A stretch of DNA of 64,000 nucleotides, from NCBI GenBank assembly GCA_016869735.1, contig VGDL01000013.1, positions 1-64,000 of the forward strand. Direction: 5' to 3'. Below are positions 17,923-40,757 of the stretch, one piece after another. The stretch is from Alphaproteobacteria bacterium. GTDB lineage: Bacteria > Pseudomonadota > Alphaproteobacteria > Acetobacterales > Acetobacteraceae. The translations under genes and the position numbers were made by a program. How positions within the stretch are numbered: position 1 is the first letter of the stretch; the number at the start of each line of letters is the position of its first letter. The notes beneath the pieces were generated by a model. It saw nothing but the letters and a program-made list of their open reading frames with translations. It ran no database searches and was not told where the DNA came from.

Positions 17923-19065
17923 TCAGCCAAGTGCGAAAAGCCCGCCATCGCCCGCGCCAAATAACTGCCCAATGCCCGCCAATGGGGCGAAAACCTCAGC
18001 ATCTGTGCCGGTCATGAAAACCTGAGCCGGCAGCGCGGCAAGTGCCGCAAAAAGCGCTTCCCGTCGCGTCGGGTCCAGATGCGCTGCCACCTCATCCAAC
18101 AGCAAAAGCGGCGCGAAGCCACGCGCTTCGGCAATCAACGTCGCATGGGCCAGCACCACGGAAACCAGCAGCGCCTTTTGCTCTCCGGTTGAACAGAACT
18201 CAGCGCTGATGCCCTTGGGCTTATGCACCAGCACCAAATCCGCCTTATGCGCCCCCCGCGCAGCCCCACCTGCTGCCGCATCGCGCCGGCGGTCCTGGGC
18301 CAAGCCCGCACGCAGCGCATCCTCCACGGCAAGGGCCGGCGTATCTGCCAGCGCCGTCAACATGGGGCAGGCAATATCCATCCGCGCGGCAGGAAAGGCG
18401 CCCGTGGCGCGGCCCGCAGCAAGTTCCGCATTCAGGCGCAGCATCAGCGCGCGCCTTGCCGCCGTAACCGCCACCGCATGGCGCGCCATGGCGTCTTCCA
18501 AGCCTGCCAGCCAAGCGGCATCCGCGCGGCCTTCCGCAAGCAGCCGATTACGCTCCGCCATCGCATTGTCATGCGCGGCCACTTCCCGCGCATGGCCCGG
18601 TTCCAAAGCCCAGACCAGGCGGTCCAGAAAGCGCCGCCTGCCACTCGCCCCTTCCTGGAATAGCCGGTCCATTTGCGGCGTGATCCAGACAGCCGCCATG
18701 CGGTCCGCAAGCATTGCCTGGCTGCGCAGCGCCTGACCATCAAGGCGGTAGATGCGCCGTTCGGCAGCCCCTTCCGGGTCTGTGCCAGTGCCAATTTCCA
18801 TGGGGCCAGCGCGAGTTTCAAACCGCCCCGCCACCGCCCAGGGTAGGGCCGCGCCAGCTTCCTGCCGGCCACATTCAGCCATACGCGCGCCGCGCAAGCC
18901 GCGCCCAGGGGCCAACAGCGATATCGCTTCCAACAGATTGGTCTTGCCAGCGCCGTTTTCGCCGGCGATGCAAATCAGGGACGCGTCAAACCGCGCATCC
19001 AGACCTAGCCATGACCGGAAATTGGTAAGCCGGAGACGCGCAAGAAAAAGCCCTGGCGCCGTCAC
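17923..19065 (-). CDS. recF: DNA replication and repair protein RecF
   Basis: 380-residue SMC-like ATPase that helps load RecA at single-strand gaps, cytoplasmic. Walker A GENGAGKT is at residues 35-42, the ABC-like signature appears as STGEQKALLVSVVLAHA and Walker B as LLLLDEVAAHLDP. Length is typical. Its start overlaps the dnaN stop by 4 bases, giving translational coupling in the conserved dnaN-recF order. A leader-like gap follows before gyrB. Confidence 0.95.
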   Translation of the reverse strand: MTAPGLFLARLRLTNFRSWLGLDARFDASLICIAGENGAGKTNLLEAISLLAPGRGLRGARMAECGRQEAGAALPWAVAGRFETRAGPMEIGTGTDPEGAAERRIYRLDGQALRSQAMLADRMAAVWITPQMDRLFQEGASGRRRFLDRLVWALEPGHAREVAAHDNAMAERNRLLAEGRADAAWLAGLEDAMARHAVAVTAARRALMLRLNAELAAGRATGAFPAARMDIACPMLTALADTPALAVEDALRAGLAQDRRRDAAAGGAARGAHKADLVLVHKPKGISAEFCSTGEQKALLVSVVLAHATLIAEARGFAPLLLLDEVAAHLDPTRREALFAALAALPAQVFMTGTDAEVFAPLAGIGQLFGAGDGGLFALG

Positions 19066-36369: not shown

Positions 36370-37995
36370 ATGACCCGCAGCCTGAGCCTTGCCTTTTCGC
36401 CGCGCTTCATCTGCCTGACGCTGGCTTGCCTCGCCGTCATTGGCTTCGCGGTTGCGCTATTGGTGGCACCCGGCTTCTGGACCGGCTTCGGCTTTGTCAT
36501 TGCGGCAGCACTTGGCGCGCTTGGGCTGCGCGATCTGTTCCACCCGACGCATGCCATTCTGCGCAATTATCCAATCGCGGCGCATCTGCGTTTCATCATG
36601 GAAGAAATCCGCCCCGAAATGCGGCAGTATTTCTTTGAGGATGAAAAACACGGCACGCCCTTCAGCCGAGACAAGCGCGCCATTGTCTATCAGCGCGCGA
36701 AAAAGCAATTGGATAAGCGGCCCTTCGGCACGCAATATGATGTTTATGAAACAGGCTTTGAATGGTTGCAGCATTCGCTCGCTGCTCGCGCGCCTGCGAA
36801 GGAATTGCCGCGTATTCTGATCGGCGGGCCGGATTGCACGCAGCCTTATTCCGCTTCCATATTAAATATCTCCGCCATGAGTTTCGGGTCGCTTTCCGCC
36901 AATGCCATTCGTGCGCTGAACCAAGGTGCGAAGCGTGGCGGCTTTGCGCATGATACGGGCGAAGGCGGGCTCAGCCCCTATCACCGCGAAGCGGGTGGCG
37001 ATCTGATTTGGGAAATCGGTTCCGGCTATTTCAGCGCACGCAATGCAGATGGCAGGTTTTCGCCGGAGCGCTTCGCAGAAGTCGCGGCGCTCAATCAGGT
37101 GAAAATGGTGGAACTCAAGCTCAGCCAAGGCGCCAAGCCTGGCCATGGCGGCGTGCTGCCGGCCGCCAAGGTGAGTGCGGAAATCGCTGCGACACGCGGT
37201 GTGGCCATGGGGCAGGATTGTGTTTCTCCGCCCGCACATAAGGCATTTTCCACCCCGGTTGAGATGATGCGCTTCATAGCCGAGATGCGCCGCCTGTCAG
37301 GCTGCAAGCCTGCGGGCTTCAAGCTGTGCATTGGCCATCCTTGGGAATTCCTCGCCATCTGCAAGGCGATGATCGAAACCGGTATTGCACCGGACTTCAT
37401 TGTGATTGATGGCGCAGAAGGCGGCACCGGCGCCGCACCGCTGGAATTCATGGATCATGTCGGCATGCCGCTGCGTGAAGGGTTAAGCTTCGCGCATAAC
37501 GCGCTGATCGGCATTGGGCTGCGTGATCAGATCAGGCTTGGCGCCAGCGGCAAAATCGCAAGTGCCTTTGACGTTGCGCGTGCGCTGGCCCTTGGCGCTG
37601 ATTGGTGTAATGCGGCGCGTGGCTTCATGTTCGCCATTGGCTGCATTCAATCGCTTTCGTGCCATACGGATCACTGCCCAACCGGTGTGGCGACACAAGA
37701 CCCAACTCGCCAACGCGCGCTACGTGTGCCGGACAAGGCGCCGCGCGTGCATCAATTCCATGCCGCGACATTGGAAGCTTTGAATGAACTGGTCGCCGCC
37801 GCCGGGCTTGCCCACCCATCCGAATTGCGCGGGGACCATTTCAGCCGGCGCATTTCGCCAAGCGTGGTGAAGAATTTTGCCGAGCTTTACCCGCCGCTTG
37901 CGCCGGGCGCATTGCTCATCGGCACGGATGATCCGCGTTTTGCCGAGGCTTGGGCCATGGCGGATGCACATAGCTTCGCCCCACGCCGCGCGTGA
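36370..37995 (+). CDS. FMN-binding glutamate synthase-family protein
   Basis: 541-residue protein with two N-terminal membrane segments (about 12-30 and 36-50), then a glutamate-synthase-type TIM barrel. Visible blocks: NISAMSFGSLSANAIRAL, GGFAHDTGEGGLSPYH, KPGHGGVLPAAKVS, the FMN phosphate site VIDGAEGGTGAAPLEF, GLRDQIRLGASGKI, and the cysteine cluster CIQSLSCHTDHCPTGVATQD that binds a [3Fe-4S] centre in GltB. It lacks the amidotransferase domain, so it is a stand-alone family member that is not assimilatory GOGAT; the reaction is unknown. ATG at 36370 with GGGAG upstream. Its stop overlaps the start of the next gene. Confidence 0.87.
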   Translation: MTRSLSLAFSPRFICLTLACLAVIGFAVALLVAPGFWTGFGFVIAAALGALGLRDLFHPTHAILRNYPIAAHLRFIMEEIRPEMRQYFFEDEKHGTPFSRDKRAIVYQRAKKQLDKRPFGTQYDVYETGFEWLQHSLAARAPAKELPRILIGGPDCTQPYSASILNISAMSFGSLSANAIRALNQGAKRGGFAHDTGEGGLSPYHREAGGDLIWEIGSGYFSARNADGRFSPERFAEVAALNQVKMVELKLSQGAKPGHGGVLPAAKVSAEIAATRGVAMGQDCVSPPAHKAFSTPVEMMRFIAEMRRLSGCKPAGFKLCIGHPWEFLAICKAMIETGIAPDFIVIDGAEGGTGAAPLEFMDHVGMPLREGLSFAHNALIGIGLRDQIRLGASGKIASAFDVARALALGADWCNAARGFMFAIGCIQSLSCHTDHCPTGVATQDPTRQRALRVPDKAPRVHQFHAATLEALNELVAAAGLAHPSELRGDHFSRRISPSVVKNFAELYPPLAPGALLIGTDDPRFAEAWAMADAHSFAPRRA

Positions 37996-38372
37996 GGGCG
38001 CTTTGGCAACGCTTGCGCTTTTGGGCGCGTTTGGTGTTGCGCGATGGCCTGGCGCTTTACATCGCCGCACGAGATGTACGCACGCCCTGGTTTGCCAAGT
38101 TGCTCGCACTTCTTGTCGCGGCCTATGCGCTTTCCCCGATAGACCTGATCCCCGACGCCATTCCGGTGCTTGGCCTGCTGGATGAGGTGATCCTGCTGCC
38201 CATTGCGATTGCCTTGATCGCGCGGTTGATCCCGGCGGTTGTCATAGCTGAAAGCCGCGCGGCAGCGCAGGCCATGGTCGAAAGGCCGCGCAGCAAGGCA
38301 GGTGCCGCTATCATCATCGGGATTTGGGTCTTGGGGGCTGGCGCCCTGCTTTGGTGGTTCTTCACGCGCTGA
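37992..38372 (+). CDS. DUF1232 (YkvA-type) membrane protein
   Basis: 126-residue protein. The DUF1232 signature is seen as YALSPIDLIPDAIPVLGLLDEVILLP, with a further membrane helix near the C-terminus (IIIGIWVLGAGALLWWF). The start GTG overlaps the stop of the glutamate-synthase-like gene by 4 bases, so they are coupled. Function of the family is unknown. Confidence 0.85.
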   Translation: MRALWQRLRFWARLVLRDGLALYIAARDVRTPWFAKLLALLVAAYALSPIDLIPDAIPVLGLLDEVILLPIAIALIARLIPAVVIAESRAAAQAMVERPRSKAGAAIIIGIWVLGAGALLWWFFTR

Positions 38373-38392: not shown

Positions 38393-38420
38393 TGTTCATC
38401 AAAACTAAGGGAGAGAAACT

Positions 38421-38834
38421 ATGGCCAAATCCGCACTCTGGAAAAAGGGCGATGCGGTCCGCACGCGCCTAATGGGTTAAGCCACTGTCAAGAATATGAA
38501 TAAGGGCGTCTATGACGACCCCATCATGGAAAAATTCGGCGACTACGCGCGTGAAGCGGTGTTTGGCATGCTCTGGTCCCGGCCGGGACTTGACCTCAAA
38601 ACCCGCGCGCTAATTTGCGTCATTTCCGATACCGCCATTCATGCCTGGCCCGAACTTGCCATCCATCTTCGCATGGCGCGGCGCATGGGCTGGACCGAGG
38701 ATGAGCTCTCGGAAGCGCTGATGCAGCTCTGCGGTTATATCGGCCTGCCAGCGGTGCGGGAAGCGATGATCGTGGCAAAGGGCGTCTTTGCCGAAATGCG
38801 TACGGAACCCGATGGTGGCCTGGGCGAAGCGTAA
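38421..38834 (+). pseudogene. Carboxymuconolactone decarboxylase-like gene with an in-frame TAA at codon 20
   Basis: The frame starts at ATG 38421 with a strong AAGGGAGAG ribosome site and reads AKSALWKKGDAVRTRLMG, then TAA (38478-38480), then ATVKNMNKGVYDDPIMEKFG and on to 38834 in the same frame. The interrupted segment aligns with the CMD/AhpD-like family pattern where G-x-x-VRRxVLG-[DE] is followed by a helix, so the TAA stands where an acidic residue is usual. The rest (112 residues from ATG 38496) has the family core LDLKTRALICVISDTAIHAW. Reinitiation at 38496 is possible, but there is no good ribosome site. Either a true nonsense mutation or a sequence error. Confidence 0.7.
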
Positions 38835-38918: not shown

Positions 38919-40757
38919 ATGTCCCATACCAACCTTGCCTCCATCGGCTTCCCGGCAAAGGAAGGGGCGCGCGGATTTACGACGCGGCCTGAAATCAGCG
39001 GCACCTTTGGCGCGGTGGCCTCCACGCATTGGATCGCATCCCAAGTTGGCATGGCGGTGCTGGAACGCGGCGGTAATGCTTTTGATGCCGCTGCCGCCGC
39101 CGGCTTCACGCTGCAAATCGTGGAACCGCATTTGAACGGGCCAGGCGGCGATTGCCCCATTTTGCTGCATAGCGCGCAGACCGGTCAGCAACAGGCGATT
39201 TGCGGCCAAGGCCCGGCCCCCGCCGGCTTGAATGTCGGGCTGATGAAAAGCCTGGGCCATGAGATCATGCCCGGCACCGGCATGCTGGCAGCACCCACCC
39301 CCGGCGCTTTTGACGCCTGGATGCTGATGCTGCGCGATCACGGCACCTGGAAGCCACGCGATATCCTTGCCTATGCGATAGGCTATGCGCGGCATGGCGC
39401 GCCCATGGTGCCGCGTGTGCGCGCCACGATTGATTCGGTGCGCCCCTTGTTTGAGGCGGAATGGAAAACCTCTGCGGCGCTCTGGCTACGCAATGGCGGC
39501 CCGGCGCCGGGTGGGCTTTATGCCAACCCGACGCTCGCCGATACCTATGAACGCGTGGTGCGCGAGGCGGAGGCCGCCGGCGGGGATCGCGTGGCGCAAA
39601 TTGAAGCCGCACGGCGCGCCTGGTATCGCGGCTTTGTGGCGGAGGCGATTGATCGTTTTTGCCGCACGAAAGAAGCGATGGATACATCCGGGCGCCGCCA
39701 CCGCGCTGTTTTGAATGGGCAGGATTTGGCGGGCTGGTCCGCAACCATCGAAGAACCGCTCGGCTTGGATTACCACGGCCATCGCGTATTGAAATGCGGC
39801 CCCTGGAGCCAGGGGCCCGCCATGCTGCAAACGCTCGCCTTGATCGCGGGCGATGATATTGCAGCGATGGACCCGCTAGGCGCGGATTTTATCCATCTGG
39901 TCGCGGAAGCCATGAAGCTCGCCTTCGCAGATCGGGAAGCGTTTTACGGCGACCCCAATTTCACTGATGTGCCAATGGCGACGCTTCTTTCGCCCGCCTA
40001 TAACGCCGCGCGCCGCGCTTTGATTGGCACTGCCGCCAGCATGGAATTCCGCCCGGGTTCGCCGGATGGCCGCGCGCCGCGCACGGATTATGCCGCTGCC
40101 ATCCGTCGCGCGCAGGAAATGGCCGCCGCTGCCGGCAGTGGTGAGCCCACCGTCTCTCGCCTTGGGGCTGCGGGTGGCGATACCTGCCATGTGGATGTGA
40201 TTGACGCTGCCGGGAATATGGTGAGTGCGACACCTTCCGCGGGTTGGCTGCAATCCTCGCCCGCCATTCCAGAGCTTGGCTTCTGCCTTGGCACGCGCTG
40301 CCAGATGTTCTGGCTGGATGAAACACTGCCGAATGGCCTGCAACCGAACAAGCGCCCACGCACCACGCTTTCACCGGCGCTGGTGCTGCGCGATGGAAAG
40401 CCCTGGATGAGCTTCGGCACACCCGGCGGCGAACAGCAGGATCAATGGCAGTCCATCATGCTGCTGCGGATGCTGCATCACGGCATGAATATACAGGAAG
40501 CGATTGATGCACCTTCCTTCCACTCGGAACATTGGATCAGCAGCTTCTGGCCGCGTGGCGCCAAGCCCGGCAAGCTGGTGATCGAAGGGCGCTATGCGCC
40601 GGAAGTGCTGGCGGCGCTGAAGGCGCGCGGCCATCAGGCGGAAGCGGGTGGCGATTGGTCCGAAGGGCGGCTGACCGGCGCGCGGCTTGAAGCCGATGGC
40701 ACCATCCGTGCCGGCGCCAATCCGCGCGGCATGCAGGGTTATGCAGTGGGGCGGTGA
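38919..40757 (+). CDS. Gamma-glutamyltransferase family protein
   Basis: 612-residue Ntn-hydrolase. The large-subunit part begins [20 protein letters not shown] and has [20 protein letters not shown] and [11 protein letters not shown]. The catalytic Thr is at residue 422, inside [20 protein letters not shown], where the precursor should self-cleave. The small subunit has [20 protein letters not shown] and [10 protein letters not shown]. No signal peptide is evident, so a cytoplasmic hydrolase of gamma-glutamyl or related amides is more likely than a periplasmic GGT. It overlaps the start of the decarboxylase gene by one base. A GC hairpin (38871-38892) lies in its leader. Confidence 0.88.

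Follow-up and report, generated by a model that had tools for sequence, protein, structure and literature searches.

A probable recent nonsense mutation in a carboxymuconolactone decarboxylase-family gene of an Acetobacteraceae genome

A gene of the carboxymuconolactone decarboxylase (CMD) family in a draft Acetobacteraceae genome is interrupted at codon 20 by an in-frame TAA, which raises the question of whether the gene has been broken, has been misread in the assembly, or is still expressed in some other way. We examined it within the window, the whole stretch of 64,000 nucleotides that was analysed, and in its relatives. The balance of evidence favours a real and recent nonsense mutation (CAA to TAA) in a gene that is dispensable in the genus, to which we assign a probability of about 0.76; a consensus error or strain mixture ranks second, functional reinitiation third, and readthrough, which is very unlikely, last. 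The features of the locus are as follows.

37992..38372, + strand: DUF1232 protein, upstream neighbour (PF06803, 2.1e-11); it also precedes the CMD gene in G025, G005 and G002
38407..38420, + strand: ribosome-binding region AAGGGAGAGAAACT serving the ancestral start; same or near-same motif in close relatives; -7.7 kcal/mol with the anti-Shine-Dalgarno (anti-SD) sequence
38421..38834, + strand: CMD-family gene, interrupted; 138 codons with the natural stop; PF02627, 5.1e-15; aligned to relatives over residues 1-137
38478..38480, + strand: TAA in frame, codon 20; the seven closest intact relatives carry CAA or CAG here
38496..38834, + strand: residual open frame of 112 aa from Met26, lacking a good ribosome site; could be translated by reinitiation
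38724..38726, + strand: codon 102, CAG (Gln); His in all of the best 80 of 110 named loci
38919..40757, + strand: gamma-glutamyltranspeptidase-family (GGT) protein, downstream neighbour, intact (PF01019, 1.1e-107)

The interrupted frame, its family and its start

Translation of 38421-38834 gives MAKSALWKKGDAVRTRLMG, the stop, and then ATVKNMNKGVYDDP and onward; the TAA of codon 20 is the sole internal stop, and the natural stop lies at 38832-38834. The PF02627 match (55.7 bits against a cut-off of 23) falls wholly downstream of the TAA, and alignments with relatives span it, most of them beginning at residue 1. The assembly thus contains what the preliminary description had reported, a TAA splitting a CMD-like frame. 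The gene shares 91% nucleotide identity with its orthologue in G024. The source genome (3.25 Mb, 99% complete) holds 14 CMD-domain matches, the interrupted gene included, and no close second copy of this gene was found there, the next-best matches being 32-34% identical.

The structure modelled was that of the intact orthologue in G024 (41 sequences, pLDDT 92) rather than that of the truncated frame in the window. Its best solved match is the CMD protein 2af7 (Z 17.2, rmsd 1.7, 120 aligned, model residues 4-129), and the intact orthologue is accordingly modelled with a CMD fold. The window gene resembles the PcaC-like CMD family (PF02627) in its domain match, as its intact orthologue does in fold. 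It differs in being interrupted and in its score: the 112-aa frame reaches 61.5 bits and two intact orthologues 70.5 and 67.4, all below the PcaC equivalog cut-off of TIGR02425 (155.7 bits), so the exact enzyme activity is left open.

The ATG at 38421 is the ancestral start, since it and a ribosome site of the AGGGAGAG type are common to close relatives. Both this motif and the start MAKS recur among them with minor variations, and position 1, aligned in 78 of the best 80 of 110 loci, is Met in 76 and Val in two. Among these best 80 the start has been lost in one, L046, the record of G026. Pairing with the anti-SD sequence is -7.7 kcal/mol at 38421, a value equalled or bettered by 161 of the 2615 ATGs in the window; at 38496 it is -3.2 kcal/mol, the window median. 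The strong ribosome site described earlier for the first ATG is therefore borne out. The similarity between the window and G024 starts at 38407, at this ribosome site. Proteins of relatives starting at the second ATG had been named as evidence that would count against an interruption: intact relatives keep the first start, whereas G026 has lost it and has a frame open from the second. An automatic annotation that starts at 38496 would conceal the interruption.

Codon 20 in relatives and constraint on the gene

Relatives came from 99 genomes, among them the window's own, and from named genome contigs, of which the best 80 of 110 loci were compared. The comparison of close orthologues that had been proposed at the outset yields no stop at codon 20 in any of these 80. 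All 80 have a sense codon there (E 40, A 16, Q 8, D 8, P 4, K or S 4), so chance does not explain the observation, and the disabling change is absent from relatives, as in a recent pseudogene. One other of the best 80 loci carries a stop, L072, at position 131, past the conserved domain. In the nearest orthologue (G024), whose protein is 96% identical, codon 20 is CAA. The seven closest intact relatives (G024, G002, G025, G018, G008, G023 and G028) all encode Gln, six with CAA and one with CAG; the damaged copy in G026 has CAA, and the next relative, G005, has GAA. The acidic residue that the preliminary description placed at the stop therefore holds for the wider family (E or D in 48 of the best 80 of 110 loci) but not for the closest relatives. 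A single-base origin of the stop from GAA is unlikely in the window's lineage, and we rejected that step on the CAA or CAG of these relatives. Since they carry Gln, a C-to-T transition from CAA to TAA is the likely change.

Within the first 402 bases, 36 differ between the window and G024, affecting 29 codons synonymously and five non-synonymously, the stop included; dN/dS, with stop codons excluded, is 0.044. Changes were polarised with eight relatives, taking a majority of at least six and omitting six unclear sites. The window branch received 18 changes, 15 synonymous and three protein-altering (the stop, H102Q and A128T). Neutral simulation predicts 11.1 protein-altering changes, and none of 20000 runs gave as few as three. 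On the sister branch to G024, two of 12 changes alter the protein. The few protein changes on the window branch thus point to a gene constrained until recently. Their low count would fit a young stop, a residual frame that is still used, or a stop that is an error, and as a sign of relaxed constraint the three non-synonymous changes in 18, counting the stop and H102Q, are too few to date the event. A 41-row alignment of relatives shows no variation at H102, nor do the best 80 loci, and H102Q adds to the case for a nonsense mutation in a dispensable gene. However, the corresponding residue in 2af7 is Gln, so H102Q is not necessarily damaging. Separately, 15 of the 18 window-lineage changes (codons 17-128) run from G/C to A/T, compared with seven of 12 in the sister G024.

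In the proposed sequence of events, a C-to-T transition would have converted CAA to TAA at codon 20, ribosomes initiating at the normal start would stop after 19 residues, and at most a weak, N-terminally truncated product would be made from Met26. We infer fixation of the stop in the living strain, loss of the gene's function and a locus that the organism does not need. Such a gene resembles other bacterial pseudogenes made by nonsense mutation in its single in-frame stop, its intact relatives and the presence of other damaged copies in the genus; it differs in its very early stage, with almost no further decay and a frame open after the stop. That open and conserved frame from Met26 also speaks against gene death, since a shortened protein could still work. 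A literature search on CMD together with pseudogene and premature stop found nothing.

Error, reinitiation or readthrough

The preliminary description had listed a nonsense mutation, a sequencing error, reinitiation and programmed readthrough as options. The first is now the best supported, the second and third keep a small share of the probability, and the last has lost its footing. The strongest competitor is that the TAA entered the consensus through an error of sequencing or assembly, or from an allele of a minority strain, with the population's main copy intact. We consider this unlikely, though it fares better than the other alternatives. It would need a single base change in a gene that otherwise looks constrained, and the genome is a draft in 131 contigs. 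Its rpoB is split across two of them (G000:C56 and G000:C78), a sign of fragmented assembly. On the other hand, the CMD gene is the only one judged broken among those compared with G024 over 38.4-59.3 kb, H102Q falls in this same gene, and relatives, too, have damaged or largely deleted copies of the locus.

That comparison took 38 ORFs of at least 80 aa from the relative, of which 19 match the window at more than 55% identity, and stops occur in the window alignment of five of the 19, the CMD gene being one. Another, an ABC transporter, was not counted as broken, because its stop falls within a 5' extension that precedes the likely start. The ORFs at 18049, 18959 and 19425 of L120 were likewise set aside, as they have no Pfam match and are antisense to frames open in the window. 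The greedy choice of the longest ORF in this comparison can hide shorter real genes, and other frames were inspected around 53.1-55.4 kb. With no other gene judged real broken over 38.4-59.3 kb, we rejected a general loss of sequence quality.

Somewhat less probable still is functional reinitiation, in which ribosomes ending at the TAA would restart 15 nt downstream at the ATG of 38496 and make a working CMD protein of 112 aa. The Met26 frame is open and contains the entire Pfam CMD match, and Met26 is kept in 79 of the best 80 of 110 loci. G026 similarly lacks the 5' end but has the frame from Met26. According to part of a review (PMC5972666), prokaryotic reinitiation is considered frequent and E. 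coli inter-cistron gaps are mostly <30 nt. The window shares with truncations rescued by reinitiation the 15-nt gap from stop to ATG and the open frame, but differs in that its second ATG has no ribosome site: no SD was found at 38496, where pairing is at the window median, but so short a gap could by itself permit coupling. Pairing before Met26 exceeds the window median in three of eight relatives (L045, -4.7; L044, -6.6; L048, -7.9 kcal/mol), so an internal start is possible in those three.

The structures also bear on both sides. Some solved CMD structures (1p8c, 1vke, 3d7i and 5dik) align only from model residue 19-33, others from 7 or before, showing that a shorter CMD fold exists. Yet the G024 model has helices at 5-18 and 20-29, both covered by the best match 2af7; with a start at Met26, this model would lose helix 5-18 entirely and the greater part of helix 20-29. 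Gly10, Arg14, Leu17 and Gly19, all N-terminal to Met26, are invariant in the best 80 of 110 loci, and the missense changes in G026 described below suggest decay rather than use of the shortened frame.

A broader form of the same idea, which we hold to be a little more doubtful again, is that at least two lineages of the genus are shifting to a shortened CMD protein from Met26, the window by its stop and reinitiation and G026 by start loss and an upstream insertion. In both, the lesions lie before Met26 and the remaining frame is open. If this were true, the two N-terminal helices would be dispensable and the damage would be a convergent shift of start, not gene death.

Programmed readthrough or recoding of the TAA to give the full-length protein, which would account for the open and conserved frame on either side, was rejected as extremely improbable, because none of the best 80 of 110 relatives has a stop at codon 20 and because TAA appears to serve this genome as a normal stop, terminating nine of 44 long non-overlapping frames in the window as well as the CMD gene itself.

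Damage and loss across the genus

The reading of a recent nonsense mutation in a dispensable gene draws on the state of the locus in the 35 genomes of the genus, the window's included. An uninterrupted copy is present in 16, a full-length but broken copy in two (the window and G026), a fragment in one (G013), and no orthologue was found in the remaining 16. One of these last, G009, is only 78% complete, and a weak match of 37 bases in G021 was left out of the orthologue count. GGT is matched in 34 of the 35 genomes.

Damaged or mostly deleted copies are present in three relatives. In the G026 copy (G026:C20, VGDM01000020.1, L046) the start codon is gone and an A run near codon 8 contains an insertion. 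This copy also has eight missense changes seen in no other row of the ten compared. Four of these affect sites kept in 79 of the best 80 of 110 loci, and the eight together suggest that the copy is decaying independently. In G013 (G013:C113, about 7750), which is without the DUF1232 gene, a deletion runs from the end of a glutamate-synthase-like gene into codon 97. G015 has no orthologue, and a remnant of the last ~20 CMD codons precedes GGT; none of 500 shuffles reached its score of 58, the highest being 35. Candidate remnants upstream of GGT in G007, G020, G031, G033 and G034 were not significant, with 37 to 53 of 500 shuffles scoring as high. These five genomes align with others just downstream of the tested remnants, and a shared old deletion is likely in them.

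We then set these states on an rpoB tree of 32 of the 35 genomes, leaving out G023 and G028 (no rpoB match) and G030 (a fragment). The intact state needs at least nine changes, and the three broken copies sit on separate branches. Shuffled labels require 10.4 changes on average, and 118 of 500 shuffles were as low as the intact label, whose distribution is patchy, no more scattered than chance and not clearly clustered. The closest CMD gene, that of G024, does not come from the nearest rpoB relative. Scars back loss directly in some genomes, and gain by transfer may have occurred in others.

The upstream neighbours of the CMD gene vary. An EamA-type transporter precedes it in G024, G008 and G028, and the DUF1232 gene with a glutamate-synthase-like gene precedes it in the window, G025, G005 and G002. 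These differing neighbours, with the start of the G024 similarity at 38407, suggest a rearrangement point beside the CMD gene.

Read as a recent nonsense mutation, the locus is an instance of everyday gene loss and offers no new insight into the genetic code or decoding. It would provide a small, clean case of gene loss caught at several stages within one genus, from intact copies through newly stopped, decayed and partly deleted ones to a remnant.
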